A stretch of DNA of 36,204 nt, from contig JAEUSP010000046.1 of assembly GCA_016788565.1 (NCBI GenBank), positions 1 to 36,204 on the forward strand, in the 5' to 3' direction. Origin of the DNA: Chlorobiota bacterium. Its GTDB lineage: Bacteria > Bacteroidota > Ignavibacteria > OLB7. Shown one piece after another: positions 1,731 to 36,204 of the stretch. The translations under genes were made by a program, and so were the position numbers. Within the stretch, counting starts at the first letter, position 1. Each line of letters begins with the position of its first letter. The notes beneath the pieces were generated by a model. The model had not been told where the DNA came from. It made no database searches and was given only the letters and a program-made list of their open reading frames with translations.

Positions 1731-2858
1731 TTACAGCCAGCGTTTGCGGCGGAAGTAGCTGAACATCCCAACGGCCGTGACCGCCATCACCCCCCACGCA
1801 AACAGGTATCCATACGGCCATTCCAGCTCCGGCATAAAATGGAAGTTCATCCCATAAACCCCAGCAATAAAGGTGAGCGGAAGGAAGAAGGTGGAGAAGA
1901 GGGTGAGCACCTTCATAATCTCGTTCATCCGGTTGGAGTTCATCGAAAGGTAGCCATCAAGCAGCCCTGTCACCACATCACGGTAGGATTCGGCAAGCTC
2001 GCTGGCGCGAACCAGATGATCATAGACATTCCGGTAGTAGGCGATTTCAACATCGGCAATCAAATCGAACTCACCACGTGCCAGCCGGCTTACCATCTCA
2101 CGCTGGTAGCTGGTAATCCGGCGCAGTTGGAACAGCCGCCGTTTCATTGCCAGAATATGCGCCAGGGTGCGGCGCGAGCTGGCGTGGAAGACTTCCGTTT
2201 CCAGTTTATCCATCTCGGCATCGAACTGATCGAGCGTTACCGCATACTGATCCACGATGTCGTGCAGGATGATGTGGTATAAATAATCGGGGCCACGCTT
2301 CACCGACCCCGGGTTCCGTTCGCAGTGGGCAATGGCGCGCTGGATAGAAGGGGAGTGATAGTAGTGGTGAGTAACAATGTAGCGTTCGCCCAAAAACGTG
2401 TTCAACTGCCCTGTGTGGATGTTGTGGCCACTGCTGGAAACTCGCCGGCGGGGTGGTGGCGGTTGCTGCTGGCTTCCGTCCTGGTTCCCGTTGTGACTTG
2501 CAATCTGGGTGGGGGGGGTGTTTGGCTTTTCTCCGTTCGGTTTTTCTCCGTTCGGTTTTTCTCCGTCCAGATAAATAATCGGGTTGATGATGCAGAACAG
2601 GTAGTGTTCGTAATCCTCCACCTTCGGCAAGTGGTCTTCGTCTCGCTGGCTTTCGCGCTGGTGGCGGCAGTCCTGAACCGCAAGGGGGTGGAAGCGGAAT
2701 ATCTGCTCAAGCATCAGCCGCTCCTCTTCATCGGTCGGGTTCTCCAAATCAACCCACAGCACCAGTGAGTTATCGGTGCTTTCCAACAGCCCCGGAATTT
2801 CTTCAACGGTGGCGTGGCGTATCGGCTGGGTGGCGGTGCTGGCAATCACGCGGATCAT
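1731..2858 (-). CDS. corA: CorA-family magnesium/divalent metal transporter
   Basis: 375 aa. The C-terminus has two transmembrane helices, with the family signature YGMN at the end of the first (FIAGVYGMNF), an acidic loop MPELEW that sits over the pore entrance, and a closing helix ending in RRKRWL. The N-terminal cytoplasmic funnel domain has the usual Val/Leu-W.DL.NP pattern (VLWVDLENPTDEEE) and the long helix that precedes the pore. CorA forms a homopentameric inner-membrane channel for Mg2+ and sometimes Co2+ or Ni2+. Residues about 98-155 are an unusual insertion: three NGEKP repeats, then Gln/Pro-rich and basic sequence. The ATG overlaps the stop of the upstream recombinase-like gene (ATGA), and GGAGGA lies about 6 nt before it, so the pair is translationally coupled. 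Confidence 0.93.
   Translation of the reverse strand: MIRVIASTATQPIRHATVEEIPGLLESTDNSLVLWVDLENPTDEEERLMLEQIFRFHPLAVQDCRHQRESQRDEDHLPKVEDYEHYLFCIINPIIYLDGEKPNGEKPNGEKPNTPPTQIASHNGNQDGSQQQPPPPRRRVSSSGHNIHTGQLNTFLGERYIVTHHYYHSPSIQRAIAHCERNPGSVKRGPDYLYHIILHDIVDQYAVTLDQFDAEMDKLETEVFHASSRRTLAHILAMKRRLFQLRRITSYQREMVSRLARGEFDLIADVEIAYYRNVYDHLVRASELAESYRDVVTGLLDGYLSMNSNRMNEIMKVLTLFSTFFLPLTFIAGVYGMNFHFMPELEWPYGYLFAWGVMAVTAVGMFSYFRRKRWL
2527..2570. repeat. 15-bp tandem repeat inside corA
   Basis: Two perfect copies and one partial copy of a 15-bp unit (TTTTCTCCGTTCGGT on the plus strand) encode the NGEKP repeats of CorA. Because the unit is a multiple of three, copy-number changes keep the frame. Confidence 0.9.
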
Positions 2859-3901
2859 GCTTGTTCCTCCGGGGCAATCATGTCGGGTTCATCAGGGGGA
2901 AGCACTGCGGCTGCGGTGGGGTCATCCAACCGCCCGCGCAGCTTAAAGTAGAGTTGTGCTGTGGGCCGCCATTCAATCCTCATGCGGCGCATCACTTCTT
3001 CGATAGTGGCCCCTTTATCCACCATCATCAGCCCGGCAGTGTGGCGTAGCGAGAAAGGGGTAAGGCGGTGGTCGCGGTTCCGTTTCACCCCGCTGGATTT
3101 CAGCCAACGGCTAACGGCTTCGCGAATCCCGCGCGAGGTCATCCGGTGTCCCTGGGTTCGGTTGCTCATGCTGGCAAACAGCGGCGCGGCTTCTTCGCGT
3201 TGGCCATCGGGGTAGCGGCGGCGAAGGTAGTCCTCCAACGCTTGGTAAACCTCGGGTGGAATCGTGACGGTTTCATCTTTCACAGTTCGGCCTTTCCCTT
3301 GCACGCTGATGTAGTAATCGCCGGACGCACGCGGCTTGATGTCGCCAACGTCGGCGTACAAACACTCGCGCTCGCTTAATGCACACCCCACCATGATTCG
3401 GATAATGGCATAATCGCGCGCCCCTTGCAGTTTGTTCCGATCCACGCTTTGAAGTAACGTCTGAAGCTCCGTACTGGTCAGGAATGTGCGGGAATGCTTG
3501 GACGGGCGACGGCCGCCAACCACACGCTTTGCGGGGTTGTTCGCAAGCACGCCAACGTCAATCAGATATTGGCAAAGCCGCCGAAGCGCGGTCATGTAGG
3601 TTGCTACCGAGACGTTCTGCAGTTGCTTCCGCTCCACCAAATAGCGTTTGTACCGCTCAACATCCCGCACGCGGAAACGGAATTTTTTATCCACCGGGAA
3701 CCACTTGATAAAGTCCCGCAGTGCGCGTTGGTAGGTCCCGCGTGTTTCCGGGCTTTTCCGTTCGCATTCCTTCAGGAATCCTTCGTAGTGATCCACCAGT
3801 TCTTTCAGCGTAAGCTGAACCGGCTCAATGGCTTCTTCAATCATTCGGGTTGGACGGTTGTTGCTGTGACGGGGCGCAATGTTATCATTTTTCTGCTTCA
3901 T
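2855..3901 (-). CDS. Tyrosine recombinase-like protein with altered active site
   Basis: 348 aa with the two-domain XerC/XerD/phage-integrase layout: an N-terminal SAM-like DNA-binding domain (about 28-120, TLKELVDHYEGFLKE...) and a C-terminal catalytic domain (about 137-325). Aligned without gaps to the XerD active-site blocks, the beta-hairpin Lys (K203 in GKG), the box II Arg (R286 in LRH) and the nucleophile Tyr (Y318 in QLYFK) are present. The first Arg is Ser176 (an Arg sits two residues later, R178), the box II His is Phe283 and the box III His/Trp is Ile309 (W311 nearby). It is coupled to corA by ATGA overlap. It may be a divergent recombinase or a DNA-binding protein that no longer cleaves. 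The family call is firm; activity is uncertain. A start at codon 20 (3844) is also possible. Confidence 0.8.
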   Translation of the reverse strand: MKQKNDNIAPRHSNNRPTRMIEEAIEPVQLTLKELVDHYEGFLKECERKSPETRGTYQRALRDFIKWFPVDKKFRFRVRDVERYKRYLVERKQLQNVSVATYMTALRRLCQYLIDVGVLANNPAKRVVGGRRPSKHSRTFLTSTELQTLLQSVDRNKLQGARDYAIIRIMVGCALSERECLYADVGDIKPRASGDYYISVQGKGRTVKDETVTIPPEVYQALEDYLRRRYPDGQREEAAPLFASMSNRTQGHRMTSRGIREAVSRWLKSSGVKRNRDHRLTPFSLRHTAGLMMVDKGATIEEVMRRMRIEWRPTAQLYFKLRGRLDDPTAAAVLPPDEPDMIAPEEQA

Positions 3902-20406: not shown

Positions 20407-21939
20407 TTAATCTCCCCCAAAATACCCAAGCCGCTCCAGCGATTGATAGACTGAGCGGGCTATGGGGGCGTTCAGTTCGCCTGCATACTGGCCATCGCGA
20501 TTTTGAATTGCTACCACCACCGCATACGCCTTCCTATTTTTCTGGCCAAACGAAACCCACCATGATGGCTCGCGCCCATCCGGCTCGCGGTCGGCAGTGC
20601 CGGTTTTTCCGTAGATGATGATCCCTTTTGCTTCCAGCCCGTTGAAGATGTTTGCGGCGGTTCCCCCTTGCATCAGCGGCTGGCGCAGAAGCTCACGAAG
20701 CCACGCCACGCTCTTCCGATCAACGCTCCAACGAAGGGTGTCGGGTTGGCGGCCCAGCTCCAGCGTTGGCCGGATGAACGTCCCGCCGTTAGCAATCCCC
20801 GACATCAGCACGGCAATGTGAATCGGGTTGGCTTTCACCGATGCTTGGCCAATCCCGATGCGGGTTTGCGCGATGACGTCGCGTGCGCGAACCCAACTTT
20901 GCGCCGGCAGCAGGGTGGAGTACTCGTTCAAAAACAACCCCGTGTTCCACCGCATTCGCTGGTTGAACCCTAACGAATCGAAGTATTCCGCAAGTGGCCC
21001 GAACCCTACCAATCGGTACGCCAAGTAGGCAAAGTAAGCGTTGCAGGAGTAGCGCATCGCCGCCGGCATGGCAATGCGCCCGTGTGCCGATCCATGGTCG
21101 GTGATCGGCGTGATCCCCCGCCCCGGCGCGTACTGGCCGCTGCACGCAAAACCGCTCTCTTCGGGCAATGGCGTTCCAAGCTCGTGCGCCGCCAGCGCAA
21201 TCAGCGGCTTGATGGAGGACCCCGGTGAAAAATTATCCTTGATTGCCCGCGAAGTCAGTGGGCGAGTTTTGCGGTCGCTGGCCCACCGCCACCATGCGGT
21301 GTCGTTGCCAACGCGGTTGGGGTCGTAGGTGGGATAATTTGCGGCGGCCAACACTTGCCCGTTCCCCGCATCCATCACCACTACTGCTCCGGTTCTGCCG
21401 TTCAGCGCGGTTAGTGCGGCACGTTGCAATCGCAGGTCAATGGTGAGTTGGGCATCGTGGGGAAGGTCGTCGCGCAGGGAATCGTTCAGCAACGTCAGCC
21501 CTTTTTCGATACCAACGCCGTCGCGCACCGGGCCGGTCCAATATCCAACCAGATGGGCCGTTGCCGGGCCAGCCGGATAGCTGCGGCGCAGATGCCCGCC
21601 ACGCAACGAATACTCCGCAAGCGGCTCTCCATTTCGATCCACGATTCGCCCCAGCGGCTGCGCAAGCCCACGAAATCTTGCTTTGGTATCGAACCCAGCG
21701 GCAACGGAGTCGGCGGGGGATTCGCCCCGCATGATGAGCTGCTCGGTTGCGGGGGTGATGGTGAAAAACACCCGCCACAGCAGCCCCCCAGCAAGCAACG
21801 CAAACAAGCCAACCGACATTGCCACCGCCCCTTTTCTTTCAATCGCACGCAAGCCTTCCAGCGCCCCGCCCCGTTGCAGCAGCGCGGCCACAACAATCAA
21901 TCCCCACAGTGAAAGAAGTGTGATGTGGAGTGGGTTCAT
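20407..21939 (-). CDS. pbpA: Class B penicillin-binding protein, PbpA-like transpeptidase
   Basis: 510 aa from ATG 21939. All three transpeptidase motifs are present: S241-x-x-K244 (SPGSSIKP), S298-C-N300 and K445-T-G-T448. Upstream is a dimerisation region with GRIVDRNGEPLAEY and YPAGPATAHLVGYWTGPVRDGVGIEKG, closest in style to mycobacterial PbpA. The N-terminus has two hydrophobic helices (about 4-22 and 36-58), where a single anchor is normal. The enzyme cross-links peptidoglycan on the outside of the inner membrane and forms an acyl-enzyme at S241. It is the last gene of the kinase operon, and its ATG overlaps the stop of the FHA gene before it. The pair rodA/ftsW that usually accompanies it is absent from the window. 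Confidence 0.93.
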   Translation of the reverse strand: MNPLHITLLSLWGLIVVAALLQRGGALEGLRAIERKGAVAMSVGLFALLAGGLLWRVFFTITPATEQLIMRGESPADSVAAGFDTKARFRGLAQPLGRIVDRNGEPLAEYSLRGGHLRRSYPAGPATAHLVGYWTGPVRDGVGIEKGLTLLNDSLRDDLPHDAQLTIDLRLQRAALTALNGRTGAVVVMDAGNGQVLAAANYPTYDPNRVGNDTAWWRWASDRKTRPLTSRAIKDNFSPGSSIKPLIALAAHELGTPLPEESGFACSGQYAPGRGITPITDHGSAHGRIAMPAAMRYSCNAYFAYLAYRLVGFGPLAEYFDSLGFNQRMRWNTGLFLNEYSTLLPAQSWVRARDVIAQTRIGIGQASVKANPIHIAVLMSGIANGGTFIRPTLELGRQPDTLRWSVDRKSVAWLRELLRQPLMQGGTAANIFNGLEAKGIIIYGKTGTADREPDGREPSWWVSFGQKNRKAYAVVVAIQNRDGQYAGELNAPIARSVYQSLERLGYFGGD

Positions 21940-22586
21940 GGTTCTGGAAAAAATGATGGTGAAAGTTCGGCAATCTGGATGTTGCACCCTCCGCAAGTGA
22001 TCTCATCGCCATTGTCCAACGGAACCGGCTCGGTCCCCATTTCAGCCCCGTTGATGATTGTGGGATTGTGCCCCAGCAGCTGGCCCTGCAATCGAAAATC
22101 GCGATACCGAAACTGCAGATGCCGCCGCGAAATCTGGCGGGCATCATCCCGCAGCGGAAGGAACTGGGCAGGGGGATTGCTATGCTCCCGGCCAACCAGG
22201 ATTTCTTGATGCCGAACCGAAACGGTCTGCTGGCCAGCGTCATCGTGAATGATGCAGGAATAGAGTTTGCGCCAAGCCTGCACGTTCACCCGGCAGGGGG
22301 AATCCAGGTCGGCCAACAGCAGGTTGATGACCACCCGCCCGAACCCGCCAACACGCCAGCGGTTTGCCTGAATAAACTCACCCACCACACCCGCCAACCC
22401 CAGCCGAAAACGCTCCAACTGCTGCGCCGGATCGCCGGCCCACTCGGCGGCAAACTGAGTCCGTTGCAGGGCGATCGTCAAGATATTTGGGACGATAATC
22501 CGCCCTTCGTGCAAGGTTGCCGCAGCGCGTAACCGCTCCTGCGCCACAAGCTGCGCGCTTCCGATCAGCGTGGTTAGCTCAATCAT
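21936..22586 (-). CDS. FHA-domain protein with FhaA-like N-terminal domain (second FHA gene)
   Basis: 216 aa from ATG 22586, which overlaps the stop of the preceding FHA gene (ATGA). The N-terminal part (about 15-100) looks like the FhaA/DUF3662 domain: LHEGRIIVPNILTIALQRTQF, then GGFGRVVINLL. The C-terminal FHA domain (about 130-210) keeps the phosphothreonine-site pattern GRE ... ISRRHLQF ... TIINGAEM ... LDNGDEITCG. FHA domains bind phosphothreonine peptides, so a client of the operon's kinase is the natural partner. Its own stop overlaps the PBP start. The longer frame back to 22721 lies inside the previous gene and is rejected. Confidence 0.8.
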   Translation of the reverse strand: MIELTTLIGSAQLVAQERLRAAATLHEGRIIVPNILTIALQRTQFAAEWAGDPAQQLERFRLGLAGVVGEFIQANRWRVGGFGRVVINLLLADLDSPCRVNVQAWRKLYSCIIHDDAGQQTVSVRHQEILVGREHSNPPAQFLPLRDDARQISRRHLQFRYRDFRLQGQLLGHNPTIINGAEMGTEPVPLDNGDEITCGGCNIQIAELSPSFFPEP

Positions 22587-23449
22587 TGCAGCAATCGGAT
22601 GGTGTAGCCTTCTACTTGAAGCTCGGTTCCGGGAAGCATGGTGCGGGGGAAGCCAGGGCGCAGCGGATCGTTCTGGCCAACCGAAACTCTCCCTTTTCCA
22701 ATCTGCTCCACCACTACCCAATCGTCATGGACTTCCAAGCGCAGTTGGTGGCGCGAGACGGTTTCGTGGAGGTCTAACTCAAGGGAGTGATGATTTTGGG
22801 GGAGTGCGGGGCGTGGGTTTCCGCGCCGGCCGATAATCCAGAATCCTTGCGGTAGCTGGGCGTTGGCAATCACCTCACCTTCCCATTCCACCACAATCCG
22901 CCACGGGCTTGGCGGTGGTGGTTGCGCTGGTGTGGGAAGCGACTCACGCTGGCGTTCACTTGGGCTTTCACTCCGGCTCTCAACTTCCCCAAGCACACGG
23001 GTGGCATCGTTTGGTGGATGCGCCGTGCGGTGCGGTGCTGGATGGGCCGTGAGATGAGGTGAGGCGGGGGGCTTGGTTTCTGGGGTGAGTACGGCGGTGT
23101 ACATCTCGCCACTGGTGAGCGCGTCGTCGCAAGCAATCGTCACCCGCAGCAGGTGGTCGCCAAAGGTTCGCATCTCCCCGGCGGAGGATTCTTTCATCAG
23201 TTGGTTGGTCAGGAAAACCTCAAGGTCGCTGATTGCGTGCATCCCCTTCAGTTGGTCGAACTGCTCGGGGCTGATCCTGAGTTCGTAGCGGGAAGGAATT
23301 CGTTTGGTTGATCCCATCAGCAATGCCCGTTCGTCGCGCACCATCCGAAGCGAGCGGAGCGATTCCTGCACGAACTGGCTGCGCTCAATGGTTTCATCAC
23401 TGCTGGGGAAGAGCATATCAATCAAGGAGCGGAAACGTGATGCTGGCAT
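22583..23449 (-). CDS. FhaA-like protein: DUF3662-type domain, linker, FHA domain
   Basis: 288 aa from ATG 23449. The N-terminal domain (about 1-120) starts FRSLIDMLFPSSDETIERS and has KRIPSRYELRISPEQFDQL and HLLRVTIACDDALTSGEMY, like the FhaA N-terminal domain of actinobacteria. A Pro/Ser/Arg-rich linker (about 125-195) follows. The C-terminal FHA domain has IIGRRGNP ... LHETVSRHQLRLEVHDDWVVVEQIG ... PGTELQVEGYTIRL, with the key Gly-Arg and Ser-Arg-His residues. Mycobacterial FhaA binds the phosphorylated pseudokinase MviN and links kinase signalling to cell-wall synthesis. An in-frame ATG at 23530 would add 27 polar residues; the start is uncertain. Confidence 0.8.
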   Translation of the reverse strand: MPASRFRSLIDMLFPSSDETIERSQFVQESLRSLRMVRDERALLMGSTKRIPSRYELRISPEQFDQLKGMHAISDLEVFLTNQLMKESSAGEMRTFGDHLLRVTIACDDALTSGEMYTAVLTPETKPPASPHLTAHPAPHRTAHPPNDATRVLGEVESRSESPSERQRESLPTPAQPPPPSPWRIVVEWEGEVIANAQLPQGFWIIGRRGNPRPALPQNHHSLELDLHETVSRHQLRLEVHDDWVVVEQIGKGRVSVGQNDPLRPGFPRTMLPGTELQVEGYTIRLLQ

Positions 23450-23575
23450 TGGACGCTGGTTGAAATGGAGTTGGTTTGGTTGCTTAGTTTTTTTCTTGTT
23501 TGGCTCATCTAAAATTACGGAGATCAGCATGAGCGGTGGGCTGGATTCGGAAGCATCTGCTCTTGCTTCTATTTC

Positions 23576-24670
23576 CTATTTCCTCACCCCTATTTTCTTC
23601 TTCCTCCCCTCCGGCGTTGGTTGCACGTTGGGAGGGGCGGGGAGCCGCGAAGTATCGGGCATTTGATTTCCGGTTGCTGGTGCGGTTGCTGGCGTGGCTG
23701 CTTCTTGGGGCGGCGGCGGAATGGGGATGAGTTCTCGCCAAACAATCACAGCTGCCAGCGCAATAATCAACGCAATGCCGAACGCCACAAGCCAGGCCCG
23801 CTGGGTTGATGGGGGAGGGGAGTAGCGGCGTTCGGGAAACTGCTCCAGCGTTGCGGGGGAATCCATCTCCGTGGGTTCGGTGCCGGCCTGAAGCTGTGCA
23901 AGAATCACGGTGATGTTATCCCCCCCGCCGGCTGCCAGCGCAGCAACCACAAGGGCATCGCAAGCGGAATCGAGCTGTGTGTTCCCGCGCAATATCTCGG
24001 CAATCCGCTCATCCTCAATTTCCGAGTGAAGCCCATCGGTGGCCAGCAGAACAGTGTCGCCGGGGTGAAGCGGGAATTGGAAGATGTCGGGGGTGACGGT
24101 CGGCTCTGACCCCAGTGCGCGGGTGATGACGTTCCGCCCGGGAAATTGCGCGGCTTGCTCCTTTGTTAAAACCCCGGAAGCAACCAATTCGGCAACGTGG
24201 GAGTGGTCGTTGGTAAGCTGCTGCAATCCGCCGTTGCGGAACAGGTAGGCGCGGCTGTCGCCCACGTTTGCCAGATGAAGTTGGTGCCCGCCACCGATGC
24301 CATCCCGCTGGATCACCGCTGCAACAAGGGTGGTTCCCATCGTCCCCGCGTCACGCTTTCGGGCGGCTTGGAACACCTGCCAATTTGCGGCCTGAACCCC
24401 TTCCGGCATCCGTTGCGCAAAGCCTTGCTGAAATTCACTTTGCTGCGGTTGCTGCATCGTCCGCAAAAACACCTCCACCGCCAGCGCGCTGGCTTCGGCT
24501 CCGCCGTGGTGCCCTCCCATTCCGTCGCAAACCACCAGCACGCACGCATCCCCCACCGGAAGCGTCGCCAAGTTGTCTTCATTCTGGATACGGCGCAGCC
24601 CAACATCCGTGCGGGTGGCAATGCGGATGTTGGGTGAGTGTTGCTCTGTTCGCTTGCAGGTCGAACTCAT
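23576..24670 (-). CDS. PP2C-family Ser/Thr protein phosphatase (PstP/Stp-like)
   Basis: 364 aa. Metal-site motifs of bacterial PP2Cs are complete: RRIQNEDN (D32), VVCDGMGGHHGG (D49), TMGTTLVAAVI, LANVGDSRAYL, LLATDGLHSEI and GGGDNITVI. After the catalytic domain (to about 265) come a Ser/Pro linker, one transmembrane helix (AWLVAFGIALIIALAAVIVW, about 293-312) and a Pro-rich basic tail outside the membrane. This is the same architecture as mycobacterial PstP. It should dephosphorylate the adjacent kinase and its substrates. It starts 11 nt after the kinase stop. The gap to the following FHA gene is 126 bp (45 bp if the longer FHA start is used). Confidence 0.92.
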   Translation of the reverse strand: MSSTCKRTEQHSPNIRIATRTDVGLRRIQNEDNLATLPVGDACVLVVCDGMGGHHGGAEASALAVEVFLRTMQQPQQSEFQQGFAQRMPEGVQAANWQVFQAARKRDAGTMGTTLVAAVIQRDGIGGGHQLHLANVGDSRAYLFRNGGLQQLTNDHSHVAELVASGVLTKEQAAQFPGRNVITRALGSEPTVTPDIFQFPLHPGDTVLLATDGLHSEIEDERIAEILRGNTQLDSACDALVVAALAAGGGDNITVILAQLQAGTEPTEMDSPATLEQFPERRYSPPPSTQRAWLVAFGIALIIALAAVIVWRELIPIPPPPQEAATPATAPATGNQMPDTSRLPAPPNVQPTPEGRKKKIGVRK

Positions 24671-24681
24671 GCTGCGTGAAA

Positions 24682-26391
24682 TTAGGGCTGGCGACGTATC
24701 TGTGATTCCGGTGAAGCAGGTTGGGTTCCGTGGCTGGAATCCACCGTGGGATTTTTTGGTGGCTGGGACAGCAATGTGTCGGGGGGTGGGGGAAGAATAT
24801 CTTTCACCTCGGGGGTATCAATCGGCGGGGCAACGTCATCCCGCTTGATCCATTTTTGCGTTTGCCGAACAATCAGCCACTCGCCGCCGCGCCGTTGGAT
24901 TGTCAGCAGGTTGCTGGTTTGGCCCCGCAGAAGCGTTTTGTCTTCGCGAAGCCGTTCGTAGGTGATCCACCACTCGGTGGTGATGGTGGAGTCGTTGGCA
25001 GCTTGCGCGTTTTTCACTTCAAGCTCGAACACCGGGGTTTCGGTGATCCGTTCGTAGAAATCGCTCATGTCCCGCTCGATGGCTGCCCGTGTTGCGCGCT
25101 TCATCCGGAAGTATTCCACGTCGCGCTCGGCATACAGCGAAGCAAGCGCGCTGGAGTTGTTGCTGCGGGAAAACATCTGGTAATCGAGCGCGATTTTCCG
25201 CGACAGCTCGAACGCCCCAGTCGCGCTAAGCCCCACCTCACCCCCGGGCAATCCTTGCTGTTGCTGGTACCACTGCATCCCAAAATATCCCCCAACCCCC
25301 AACACAATGGCAGCAAGGACAATCCAAATCGGGGCGTTGCTTGGTTTGCGTTTGTCGGATGGAGTTGGTTGCTGTGGCTGCGCTGCGGATTCCGGTTGCG
25401 GCGGGAACTGCGGCGTGGCGGCGGGGGGCGAAAACTGCTGCGAGCTTTCTGCTGAACCAGCCACCACTGTTGGCGGAGCAATAACTGCCGGCGCAACCAC
25501 CGTTGCAGCGGGGTCGTGGAAGGGAGTGGGATTGTGGAAGGGGGTGGAATCGTTGGTGGTATCTATCATCTCCAGCGCGCTTAAAAATTCCCCCGCCGTC
25601 TGGAATCGTTCGTCGGGATTTTTTGCGGTGGCGCGGTGCAGCAGCCGCGTAACGGATGCTGGCAACGTCGGCTGGAAGGTGCGTGGATCGGGAAGCTGCG
25701 CGGTTAGCACCCCCTGGATAACCTCGGCATATCCAATGGGGGTTTCCTGGCTGCGTGCAAATGGCTTGCGTGCGGTCAGCAATTCAAACAGGGTGATGCC
25801 AAGTGAGTAGAGGTCGGTTCGGTGGTCAATGTGCGCGCCGCGTGCTTGTTCGGGGGACATGTATTCTGGAGTTCCCAGCCCTTTTTGGGTGCGGGTTTCC
25901 CCCTGCTGCCAAACGAATTTTGCGATGCCAAAATCGGCAAGCCGGACAACGTCGTCCCAGCCAACCAATAAGTTGGAAGGCTTGATATCACGGTGAATAA
26001 TCCCAAGCGAATGGAGGTGGGCCAACCCGGCCAATGCTTGGCGGATATACTCACTTGCTTTCTGGAACGGTAGCGGCCCCGATTCCTTGTAGATCACTTG
26101 GGCCAGGGAACGTCCGGCCACATACTCCATCACCACGTAGAACGTATCATGCTCGCGGAACCAATCCAGCATCCCCACAATGTTCTGATGCCCGGCCCCC
26201 TGCTGAACCTCCGGCTCGCGACGCAAGCGGCGTTCGTAGTCGGCATCCACATCCTCCATTCGGATTGCTTTCAAGGCCACAATCAGCCCATCGTCGGCAC
26301 GGCGCGCCCGATAGACTTGGCTCATCCCGCCCGAGCCAATCAGTTCCAGCAGTTCGTAGCCACCAACACGGCGCAGAGATTCGTTCGTCAT
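24682..26391 (-). CDS. Membrane Ser/Thr protein kinase with NTF2-like extracytoplasmic domain
   Basis: 569 aa from ATG 26391; an ATG seven codons upstream at 26412 is also possible. The N-terminal Hanks-type kinase domain (10-285) has GSGGMSQVY, the ATP lysine K41 (VALKAI), the catalytic loop HRDIKPSN (D135), DFG (D153) and an activation loop with GTPEYMSPEQ. A long Pro/Gln/Ala linker precedes the single transmembrane helix (PIWIVLAAIVLGVGGYFGM, about 355-375). The outer part has no PASTA repeats. Instead about 400-520 resembles a SnoaL/NTF2-like cone (SALASLYAERDVEYFRMKRATR ... DSTITTEWWITYERL ... EWLIVRQTQKWI). It heads the phosphatase-FHA-FHA-PBP operon and probably senses an envelope signal. 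Confidence 0.92.
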   Translation of the reverse strand: MTNESLRRVGGYELLELIGSGGMSQVYRARRADDGLIVALKAIRMEDVDADYERRLRREPEVQQGAGHQNIVGMLDWFREHDTFYVVMEYVAGRSLAQVIYKESGPLPFQKASEYIRQALAGLAHLHSLGIIHRDIKPSNLLVGWDDVVRLADFGIAKFVWQQGETRTQKGLGTPEYMSPEQARGAHIDHRTDLYSLGITLFELLTARKPFARSQETPIGYAEVIQGVLTAQLPDPRTFQPTLPASVTRLLHRATAKNPDERFQTAGEFLSALEMIDTTNDSTPFHNPTPFHDPAATVVAPAVIAPPTVVAGSAESSQQFSPPAATPQFPPQPESAAQPQQPTPSDKRKPSNAPIWIVLAAIVLGVGGYFGMQWYQQQQGLPGGEVGLSATGAFELSRKIALDYQMFSRSNNSSALASLYAERDVEYFRMKRATRAAIERDMSDFYERITETPVFELEVKNAQAANDSTITTEWWITYERLREDKTLLRGQTSNLLTIQRRGGEWLIVRQTQKWIKRDDVAPPIDTPEVKDILPPPPDTLLSQPPKNPTVDSSHGTQPASPESQIRRQP

Positions 26392-26486
26392 GGTTAGTTG
26401 TTTGTGGATCACGTATTGTGGATCAAAGTAGTTGGCTTATCTGCAGCTATTGAGCAACGTATGAATTGCACTACCGAACATCGTCC

Positions 26487-32874: not shown

Positions 32875-34971
32875 CTAATTCTTCACCGGTGTTTTTACCA
32901 CCACATCCACTGTTCGGCTGAAGAATCGGCCTTCGGGGAGGTCGTTGTTGAAGAGCGATGTTGTTTCGCCAACGCCGGTTGCGTTTTCGGCTGGCACGTT
33001 CAGCTCTTTTGCTGTGTTGATTGCCCGCTCGCGCGATAGCTGCAAGTTATGCGATTCGTCCCCTAACCGGTCGGTGTATCCGGTAATCTGCACTTGCGAT
33101 TCGGGGGTGATCCGCTCCTTAATCGTCCGCGCAATGTTCTTGCTGGTTTCGGTCAGTGTGGCCTTGTCATAATCGAAAGTTATCAGGTTGAACCGCTCGA
33201 ACGCCATATCCCCCTGCTTCTCTTCCCGCTTCTTCTGGATGGTGATCTGCTCCACAGGCAACTCGGCTTGGGCCACTGCTTTTTTGCCGCGCGTGTCGGT
33301 TATCTCAAACCGCGTCACCAACGGCGTGCGGTCAATCGGCGCTTGTTCCTGGATGCCGGTGATGTCCCACTGCAACTGCTCCGGCGGCGTTCCTGTTCCG
33401 CTGAACTCCTTCAACATCCGCCCCCCCTGGCTGATGGTTGCTCCCCACTGGCGCGCTCCCGATTCCGCTTTCACCAACGGACGCAGCAGCACCTTCGGTG
33501 GGTCGGCGGTCCGAAGCGTGTCGCTGACGGCCACGGGGTCCAGCAGGCTCAGCGTCCGGCTGGAAATTTCCACGCGGCGGTTCTCCGCAATCCCGTCGGG
33601 GTCGGCTGGGCTGGATGCAAGCGCGGGAAGGTTCCGCGCGGCAACGTCAATCCGGTTTGGCTCAATCCCCCAACGTGAGGTCAGATATTCCTTCACTGCT
33701 TCGGCGCGGGATTTCGAGAGCGCGGTGTTGTTGGCCTCGGCCCCGGTGTTGGAGTTGGTTCCGGTCAGGGTGATTTTCGACCCTGGTGCGCGCCGCATTC
33801 TATCGCCCAAAATGTTCAGCATCTGGTAATACACCTCCATCGTTCCTTGCCCGTTCAGTTGGTCGGTTTGGAACTGCGCGGAAGCGTCGCCGCTGTACTG
33901 GCGGTAGCGCGTTGGTATCTGGGCCGAGTTGTCTTCAAAGAAAATATAGTTCAGCAGCGAGCTTGTCTGCGTGTTGATGAACTCCTCCACCCGGATTGTC
34001 ACCCCTGGCCGCTCGGTTCCGTCGGCACTTACGCCAACGGCTGCAAGCTGGGCTGCCAGCACCGGTTCGGGTGGTGGTGGCGGCGGTGGTGGGGGCGGTG
34101 GTGGAGGTGGCGGCGGCGGCGGTGGGGGAGGTGGCTCCGTGACCGGGAAGGCATACTTCAACGACGCGCCGCCGCGAAGCTGATGGATTTTCCAATCAAG
34201 GTCGCTGGTGACGTTGGTGAAGCCAAAGGAGAAGCCGATTTCTGGAGCAAGGATGAACGTTTCGGACGTGTTCAGCGGAAGCTCATAATCGGCACCGATC
34301 ACCCCGGCAACCCGCAGCCCGGTGTTGGCAAGCTCGCCGGAAACAGGATTTCGCACACGGGTGTTCTGTCCGTTATCGCCGATGAATGTGGCGGAAGAAG
34401 GGGAGACCAACTGCTCCTGCTGGGTGAAGTTTTTGGTCATAAAAACCCCAACTTCCGGCCCCAGCCGGACTGTCAACGGCATATCGTGGATTGGCCGCCA
34501 TCCCAGCAGAATTTCGCTGCCAACCATTCCCAACGTGGCATCAAGGCTGTACTGGCTGATGCCGCTGGCGGTGTCGTTGCCAACAACGATTGGGCCGATA
34601 TGGGCATCGGCAGTTTGCGTTGCGGCAAGTGAGTACAAGCCGGCGCGGGCAATCAGCCGGAATTGCTCGTCGAACGGAAGCTCGAACAGTGCTCCAACGG
34701 CGTACCCCATTCCGGTGCCGCCGGTGAAGCCAACGTCATCCAGTGCCATGCAGTTTGGCGTGCCGGGGATTCCGAAGAACTGGCTGCTGTGGATATTCAG
34801 CCCCAAGTTCCCAAACAGGCCGATGCGTGGCTGAAGGCGTTGTTCGGCCAATTTTTGTTCTGGCGTTTTTGTGCTGCGTGGTTCCTGCTGCCCAAGCGTT
34901 GGCAACGCCAGCAAGGGCCACAGAAACAGCAAGCAGAGAAGAAGCCGGGGGAAGCGACGTATCATGGTCAT
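32875..34971 (-). CDS. Outer-membrane protein with N-terminal barrel-like domain and two OmpA domains
   Basis: 698 aa. Signal peptide MTMIRRFPRLLLCLLFLWPLLALPTLG (the second Met, at 34965, may be the start). About 45-285 is a beta-rich domain with alternating strands, GLNIHSSQFFGIPGTPNC at its start and an end in SLKYAFPV, like outer-membrane barrels. A run of 22 prolines (34069-34134) follows. Next is an OmpA-like domain (about 330-475: NYIFFEDNSAQIP ... GSKITLTGTNSN ... LSKSRAEAVKEYL ... ENRRVEISS), a linker, and a second, more canonical OmpA domain at the C-terminus (ITFDYDKATLT ... VQITGYTDRLGDESHNLQLSRERA). The OmpA domains bind peptidoglycan (diaminopimelate), so the protein should tether the outer membrane to the wall. 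Confidence 0.9.
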   Translation of the reverse strand: MTMIRRFPRLLLCLLFLWPLLALPTLGQQEPRSTKTPEQKLAEQRLQPRIGLFGNLGLNIHSSQFFGIPGTPNCMALDDVGFTGGTGMGYAVGALFELPFDEQFRLIARAGLYSLAATQTADAHIGPIVVGNDTASGISQYSLDATLGMVGSEILLGWRPIHDMPLTVRLGPEVGVFMTKNFTQQEQLVSPSSATFIGDNGQNTRVRNPVSGELANTGLRVAGVIGADYELPLNTSETFILAPEIGFSFGFTNVTSDLDWKIHQLRGGASLKYAFPVTEPPPPPPPPPPPPPPPPPPPPPPEPVLAAQLAAVGVSADGTERPGVTIRVEEFINTQTSSLLNYIFFEDNSAQIPTRYRQYSGDASAQFQTDQLNGQGTMEVYYQMLNILGDRMRRAPGSKITLTGTNSNTGAEANNTALSKSRAEAVKEYLTSRWGIEPNRIDVAARNLPALASSPADPDGIAENRRVEISSRTLSLLDPVAVSDTLRTADPPKVLLRPLVKAESGARQWGATISQGGRMLKEFSGTGTPPEQLQWDITGIQEQAPIDRTPLVTRFEITDTRGKKAVAQAELPVEQITIQKKREEKQGDMAFERFNLITFDYDKATLTETSKNIARTIKERITPESQVQITGYTDRLGDESHNLQLSRERAINTAKELNVPAENATGVGETTSLFNNDLPEGRFFSRTVDVVVKTPVKN

Positions 34972-35182
34972 TCAGAGTAGGTTAAAACGAAGATCACTTG
35001 GCCGAAAGATACGGAAGAGAGGTGGGGAATTGGTAATGGAGAATTGAGAATTGATAAGTGAGAATGGATAATTGGCTCATTTAGAGTTAGCGTGTAAAGC
35101 ATGAGTTGAGCCGGAAAATTTGTTCGACAAGGCAAATCGCGTGGCTTGATTTTCATACATTGCGCCATTCTTACGCCGTGCA

Positions 35183-35296
35183 ATAGCTTTTGGCTCTATG
35201 AGTCATCCGGTTTCCGTCAGTTTACTATGTGGTAGTAGTAGCGGTTCTACCGAATCGTTGATGTGAAATGATGGCGGGCTCATAGGGCTTTTTTAC
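35183..35296 (+). ncRNA. Candidate structured RNA element, copy 1
   Basis: First of two ~115-nt direct repeats. A 10-bp closing stem (35193-35202 with 35279-35288, one G-U) is followed by TTTTTT. Inside are two small hairpins, TACTA-TAGTA (35223-35237) and CGGT-TCT-ACCG (35242-35252). The closing stem changes in copy 2 but stays paired if G-U is allowed on the plus strand, which suggests RNA function. This is a computational inference only. Confidence 0.45.
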
Positions 35297-35310
35297 GGGT
35301 AAGCAGTTCG

Positions 35311-35424
35311 ATAGCTTTTGGCCCTATGGGCCGTCTGGTTTCTGTAGGCTTACTATTGGCGTAGTAGCGGTTCTTACCGTAAAGCTGATCTGAAATCATG
35401 GCGGGTTCATAGGGTCTTTGTTTA
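35311..35424 (+). ncRNA. Candidate structured RNA element, copy 2
   Basis: Second copy, offset by 127-128 bp. Closing stem 35321-35330 with 35406-35415 (seven Watson-Crick and three G-U pairs). The same two inner hairpins are at 35351-35366 and 35368-35379. No U-run follows (GTCTTTG). Overall similarity to copy 1 is roughly 75-80 percent by eye. Confidence 0.45.
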
Positions 35425-35559
35425 TGAATTAGCTGGAGGCATGAACAACCACGCCCCCGGCTTCGTTTTCAAAAACTCCCACTCTTTCCTCCCCTCTTCT
35501 TCGCGCCCTTTGCGTTCCCCCTTTGCGTCTTTGCGTGAACCTCTTCTCTTTCCCCCCCC

Positions 35560-36204
35560 CTACTTCGCCACATTCATCACCCGGGTCAAACGCTGCGTTG
35601 GCGTTTCTAAAATGTAGATGTAGCTGCCGCTGGGGAGTACCCCGGCGTCGAAACGAACCACGTACCGACCGCGGCGCGCGATTCCATCTACCAGGCGCAA
35701 CACCTCCTGGCCCAACGTGCTCACCACGTAGAGCTTCGTTTGGCCGCCCTCGATTAGCTCGTACTCAATCTCCGTTTCCCACGTCACAGGGTTTGGACGG
35801 TTCGGTTTCAGCACCAGCTTTCCTTCGGCTTCAATCAGCCGCAACGTTCCGAATCTGCAGATGCCGTTCAGCCGAAATTCGCCCGGCTCTGCGGTGGCCG
35901 TCACTGGCTTGCTCAACTGCAAATCTGTCAGCTTTAACGATGTGGCTTCGGCGTTGCCGAGCGTGGCGGTGAACTCGTAGCTGGCAACCTCACCGCTGCT
36001 GAACTCCGCTGGGATTTCCCCCGTCACCGGAACCAACCGCTCGCCATCGGCCACGCTCCCAATCGGTGTTGATCCCGCCGGAAACAGCAGGCTGTTGTTG
36101 AATCGAAGCACTCCGCTGAAGCTGGTCGAGCCGCTTCCAGCAAGCCCGCCGCCACTGACCTCTGCCCGAATCGGAACCCGCACCCGCTCGCCTGCCGAGG
36201 CTTC
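35560..36204 (-). CDS. T9SS-exported protein, C-terminal part (5' end outside the window)
   Basis: 215 residues visible; the frame is open to the right edge, so the N-terminus is missing (a GTG at 36183 is not a believable start). Residues EASAGERVRVPIRAEV...SGVLRFNNSLLFP look like a cohesin-like or hyaline-type beta-sandwich. The last ~80 residues are a type IX secretion sorting domain: NRPNPVTWETEIEYEL, STLGQEVLRLVDG, LPSGSYIYILETPTQRLTRVMNV, with the usual G-x-Y-[IL/F]-Y core and a basic, short C-terminal strand. Such proteins are carried across the outer membrane by the T9SS and either released or anchored after removal of the domain. Cargo function unknown. Confidence 0.85.
   Translation of the reverse strand, partial: EASAGERVRVPIRAEVSGGGLAGSGSTSFSGVLRFNNSLLFPAGSTPIGSVADGERLVPVTGEIPAEFSSGEVASYEFTATLGNAEATSLKLTDLQLSKPVTATAEPGEFRLNGICRFGTLRLIEAEGKLVLKPNRPNPVTWETEIEYELIEGGQTKLYVVSTLGQEVLRLVDGIARRGRYVVRFDAGVLPSGSYIYILETPTQRLTRVMNVAK

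Follow-up and report, generated by a model that had tools for sequence, protein, structure and literature searches.

Two adjacent units in a gene-free gap near the end of the contig are best read as paralogous genes in tandem, each encoding a stand-alone structured small RNA on the plus strand, a candidate assignment made from the sequence to which we give a probability of about 0.6. The two units are diverged repeats of each other, each copy has a predicted fold with a long closing stem, and the pairing retained between the copies is biased towards the plus strand. The fold z-scores of about -4.4, the mutant test and the closing-stem test together make this reading, already put forward as a candidate structured RNA in the sequence-only reading, the best supported.

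Location and identity of the units

The window, i.e. the whole stretch of DNA that was analysed (36,204 nucleotides), is the entire contig C36 of a 4.58-Mb genome. The units, each of ~113 nt, lie side by side in a 588-bp gap between ORFs (34972-35559) with a copy spacing of 126-128 nt (Table 1). Repeat comparison gives 77% identity over 57 nt ungapped together with an identical 14-mer, and the full alignment gives 79.2% identity over 125 aligned positions (E 8e-24). Both the tandem repeats and the 588-bp region without genes are thereby as first described. The copies are separated by 22 substitutions and by gaps of 2 nt and 1 nt, and the homology between them extends upstream to 35172. No ORF within the units exceeds 39 aa, except for a 71-aa minus-strand frame that overlaps unit 1 at a single base. 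The lack of long ORFs, a 128-nt spacing that cannot be divided by 3 and the two gaps of 2 nt and 1 nt between the copies are points for the RNA reading.

Table 1. Coordinates of the two candidate RNA units and their predicted structural elements within the window.
Feature	Position	Strand	Basis
Unit 1 (candidate structured RNA, copy 1)	35183..35295	+	Repeat search, alignment, fold, mutant test
Unit 2 (copy 2)	35311..35422	+	Repeat search, alignment, fold, mutant test
Conserved 5' flank ATAGCTTTT	35183..35191	+	Identical at 35311-35319
Closing stem of unit 1, 5' arm (13 nt)	35192..35204	+	Fold, mutant test
Closing stem of unit 1, 3' arm, running into T tract 35289-35294	35277..35289	+	Fold, mutant test
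Six-T tract after unit 1 closing stem, terminator-like	35289..35294	+	Sequence
Closing stem of unit 2, 5' arm	35320..35332	+	Fold, mutant test
Closing stem of unit 2, 3' arm, then TTTGTTT	35404..35416	+	Fold, mutant test
Unit 1 inner hairpin 1 (TTACTA...TAGTAG), invariant arms	35222..35241	+	Consensus structure
Unit 1 inner hairpin 2 (CGGT...ACCG)	35242..35252	+	Consensus structure
Unit 2 inner hairpin 1	35350..35367	+	Consensus structure
Unit 2 inner hairpin 2	35368..35379	+	Consensus structure

Predicted fold of each unit

Folded singly on the plus strand, each unit forms a 13-bp closing stem, within which lie an inner stem and a pair of small hairpins, with energies of about -42 to -46 kcal/mol. 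The corresponding z-scores are -4.42 for unit 1 and -4.40 for unit 2, and both beat 200 of 200 dinucleotide shuffles. On the minus strand the energies are -20.7 and -22.2, with z of about -2.1. The separate folds are retained when the two units are folded jointly, and the 118 nt just upstream of them give no structure signal on either strand (z 0.24 and -0.26). The raw fold energy is ordinary, falling outside the 25 lowest among 234 intergenic gaps folded; what is unusual about the units lies only in the composition-corrected and mutation tests. The run of six T that had been noted earlier comes after the closing stem of unit 1, and the tail of copy 2 at the equivalent point, CTTTGTTT, is weaker.

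Copy differences and the fold

Of the 13 closing-stem pairs, 6 are not the same in the two copies, and each of these is still G-C, A-U or G-U, for which the chance is ~0.003 if six changes of the same kinds are placed in the stem at random. The changes listed in the sequence-only reading are correct for the 10 bp that it described, but the stem extends to 13 bp with six changed pairs, all of them standard. The strand bias emerges from sets of 4000 random mutants carrying the observed substitutions and gaps. Mutants in which the energy and the shared pairs are both kept number 1/4000 and 0/4000 on the plus strand versus 195/4000 and 190/4000 on the minus strand, and the earlier claim that the plus strand is implicated is supported. 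Taken separately, the observed energy is reached by 7 and 10 plus-strand mutants per 4000 and the shared pairs by 53 and 49 per 4000.

When the fold of copy 1 is read in copy 2, 9 of the changed pairs are kept, 5 are broken and a gap removes 1 (joint null P 0.025), and the reverse comparison gives 9 kept and 5 broken (P 0.006). The broken pairs lie in the inner parts, outside the closing stem, where the folds of the two copies differ in detail. All 31 consensus pairs of the RNAalifold structure are intact in both copies, a figure that is partly built in as the consensus was made from the same two copies; with partners slid by 1-3 columns, 36-55% of cells are paired. None of the 31 pairs is changed on both sides, i.e. 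there is no two-sided compensatory change. The two inner hairpins are indeed shared, as was first observed, but they add no covariation evidence because their arms never vary. Overall the evidence that the plus-strand fold is under selection is good, but it is drawn from two sequences in one genome.

Genomic setting and possible signals for expression

The left neighbour (32875-34971, minus strand) encodes OmpA domains and is 93% identical in a sister species of the same genus. DNA similarity to that species stops at 35052, and the units are absent from its orthologous site. The right neighbour starts at 35560 and continues on the minus strand as far as the contig end; it is a gene fragment with a T9SS sorting domain, and its 3' end faces the units. 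The T9SS domain suggests that the host belongs to Bacteroidota, broadly taken, and no 16S rRNA was found in its assembly. Two near-identical paralogues (97-98%) of the fragment (35560-36204) lie at contig ends, those of C77 and C111, and this repeat probably broke the assembly at the present contig end. The units thus have a conserved gene on one side, where the sister-species similarity breaks off at 35052, and on the other a duplicated gene, to which the flank from position 35450 belongs and of which the genome has two near-identical paralogues. With the right neighbour on the minus strand there is no next plus-strand gene, so nothing downstream on that strand could be controlled in cis. Elsewhere in the window a tyrosine recombinase of the phage integrase family (2855-3901) lies beside a CorA-type transporter gene, and a gene run at 20407-26412 encodes a penicillin-binding transpeptidase, an FHA-domain protein, a PP2C phosphatase and a Ser/Thr protein kinase.

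Within the conserved flank, TAGCTTTT agrees at 5 of the 6 bases that are fixed in the Bacteroidetes -7 box TAnnTTTG, the sigma consensus given in PMC7366714, and provides a weak promoter hint. Among 266 upstream regions taken from 844,730 bases TANNTTTG occurs 17 times forward and 7 times in reverse, with 8.3 in shuffles, and TTG-N17-23-TANNTTTG occurs 6 times forward and 3 times in reverse, with 1.0 in shuffles; the exact TAGCTTTTG has 0 occurrences in these regions. These counts hint at Bacteroidetes-type promoters, too weakly for a start site to be assigned. The conserved ATAGCTTTTG of the units could be part of a promoter, in which case transcription would start inside the closing stem. 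A sigma-70 scan gives no promoter at the units, and a standard terminator scan does not pick the closing stems because it allows only loops of 3-8 nt. A duplex scan of 561 predicted starts gives no credible target: its one outlier, the best for both copies, belongs to an ORF that looks spurious by translation, and the OmpA-domain neighbour takes ranks 420, 541, 271 and 490 (counted from 0) of 561.

Search for relatives and other repeats

Rfam 15 gives 0 matches across the window at gathering score, and for 34972-35560 at E up to 5 only CsrB, at 10.4 bits versus the 71 needed and outside the units. The genome itself holds these two copies and no further ones, and a DNA search of 61 genomes returns the self match only. 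Covariance model R1 finds no accepted homologue in 61 relatives, no homologue in a sample of 391 genomes of the class or in one of 395 genomes of the phylum (the samples overlap and both include the own genome), and no further homologue in the order's 5 genomes (the own and 4 others); searches over 40 genomes apply stricter filters, by which weak matches can be lost. Further copies that break the stem had been proposed as a sign against the RNA, and none was found in the own genome or the genomes searched. One weak match in the sister species (contig C53; 20.3 bits, E 0.02 for one genome) is ascribed to chance, as no part of the closing stem is present in it. Plasmids give no match to the units and phages none beyond chance, the matches in phage tail fibres (E 0.4) being of the chance kind. 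A 17-base pattern has four matches in viral contigs, whose flanks show them to be unrelated, and two further patterns have no match in viral contigs. A low-information pattern occurs in at least 120 stretches of genome contigs, and the 80 of these that were tested with R1 give nothing convincing. Judged by Rfam 15 and the genomes searched, the units are new, a sequence without a name being beyond the reach of paper searches, and have so far been seen in one species only.

Direct repeats of at least 40 nt occur in 12 of 235 gaps of this genome, of which 11 were viewed and the gap in L172 was left out. By eye, the ten viewed gaps other than that of the units include five with one dispersed palindrome, one with a minisatellite and one (L187) with a structured tandem pair. 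As repeats are not rare in gaps, the repeat itself is unremarkable and the kept fold is what stands out.

The dispersed palindrome, which is REP-like (CCGCTCATACTTCGACGGGGCTCAGCATGAGCGGAGG), is common in gaps, at 1293-1730 of the window and in the gaps of L162, L177, L181 and L193, its core words having 16 and 45 counts in 43 stretches of the genome. At L187, on contig C111, positions 2422-2520 and 2620-2722 form a second, unrelated and species-restricted tandem hairpin pair. The stems of this pair differ almost wholly (CTCCACCCTTGA/TCAAGGGTGGAG versus TTAGCCCTGGCT/AGCCAGGGCTTAA) and the loop TGGAACCGCA and tail GTCAAACCCACAGAA are identical, so the stem is compensated. The pair has no Rfam family at gathering score, and a search of 61 genomes with its model R2 yields these two copies and no others.

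Alternative explanations and proposed function

The units could instead be DNA elements, the hairpin then being a feature of the DNA; candidates are the decayed end of a mobile element, a palindrome of the REP or MITE kind and a site of recombination. The setting lends this some weight: the gap lies at a synteny break, its right flank belongs to a gene with two near-identical paralogues, direct repeats are found in other gaps, and the dispersed palindrome (TTCGACGG...CTCAGCATGAGC) underlies 5 of the 11 gaps viewed by eye. Such palindromes are dispersed, however, whereas the units occur nowhere else in the genome, and in place of the several dispersed copies expected of a REP or MITE there are two copies only. 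The plus-strand pairing is kept through G-U pairs, which suits an RNA and would give A-C mismatches on the minus strand. An attC site would carry the R boxes RYYYAAC and GTTRRRY at its ends, and it was rejected as unit 1, read by eye, contains no AAC triplet. Plasmids have no match and phages none beyond chance, there is no positive sign of the mobile-element end that the sequence-only reading had named as a possible refutation, and a DNA element is considered unlikely. The pair might also be a non-functional tandem duplication of a sequence that folds by chance, its drifted copies having retained their pairs by luck. Direct repeats are not rare in gaps, there are only two copies to compare, and the single-copy tests reach P values no smaller than 0.025 and 0.006, all of which is compatible with luck; the rarity of mutants that keep both energy and pairs, the closing-stem P of 0.003 and the lack of any such effect on the minus strand argue against it, and we regard it as improbable. 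A third proposal, tandem riboswitch-like leader or attenuator elements that control a downstream message, would suit the aptamer-like closed architecture with its terminator-like base, and tandem riboswitches exist (PMC9481103). It is very improbable, given that the next ORF is the 3' end of the minus-strand T9SS-domain gene with no plus-strand gene following, that the OmpA-domain gene is divergent on the minus strand and that the fold is lost on that strand.

If the units are tandem small-RNA genes, a duplication would have produced the pair, and selection on the fold would have let the sequence drift to ~79% identity while every closing-stem pair was kept. Each RNA would be ~105-113 nt in length and self-closing, the 5' and 3' ends forming the 13-bp stem, and this stem with its U residues may double as the terminator. 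The units would be transcribed from their own promoters, and the RNAs may act in trans by base pairing or protein binding. As a long shot, folding of the branched core, perhaps bound by a ligand or protein, might decide between a stop after unit 1 and read-through into a double-length RNA, which would constitute a new class of structured RNA in a Bacteroidota-like lineage that has been little studied. The prrF1-prrF2 locus, which yields PrrH, is a model for such a double-length read-through RNA.

If transcribed, the units would represent an uncatalogued, species-restricted small-RNA family recognized from two diverged copies in one genome, which comparative pipelines needing many species would miss. 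Tandem paralogous copies can also replace missing homologues in testing the fold of an orphan RNA. The overall gain is modest until expression is shown.

Comparison with known systems

The REP-like palindromes of this genome resemble the units in being imperfect palindromes between genes, at times with two in one gap, and differ in being dispersed through many gaps. A resemblance in length exists to 6S-Flavo (RF01685), the ~108-nt 6S RNA of Bacteroidetes. The ends of 6S RNA are paired together, as in the predicted fold of the units, but the molecule forms one long rod with a central bubble, whereas the units would contain two small hairpins. Identity with 6S RNA was rejected as RF01685 does not match the region even at E up to 5; the model has no match in 21 genomes and likewise none in 14 controls, so this does not establish its genome-wide absence.

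The closest likeness is to the tandem sibling sRNAs PrrF1/PrrF2, AbcR1/AbcR2, OmrA/OmrB and NgncR_162/163, which likewise consist of two adjacent paralogous units with a similar fold, the arrangement found here. According to PMC4211561 tandem AbcR pairs have an identity above 65% or above 80%, and the siblings OmrA and OmrB are 88 and 82 nt in length; the adjacent NgncR_162/163 of Neisseria share 78% identity (PMC9973317). The sibling sRNAs are expressed and have known targets, whereas the present units are predicted from sequence, and no sequence relation is claimed. They would also differ from the tandem sibling sRNAs in architecture, as the stem that closes the whole RNA would at the same time be the terminator stem.
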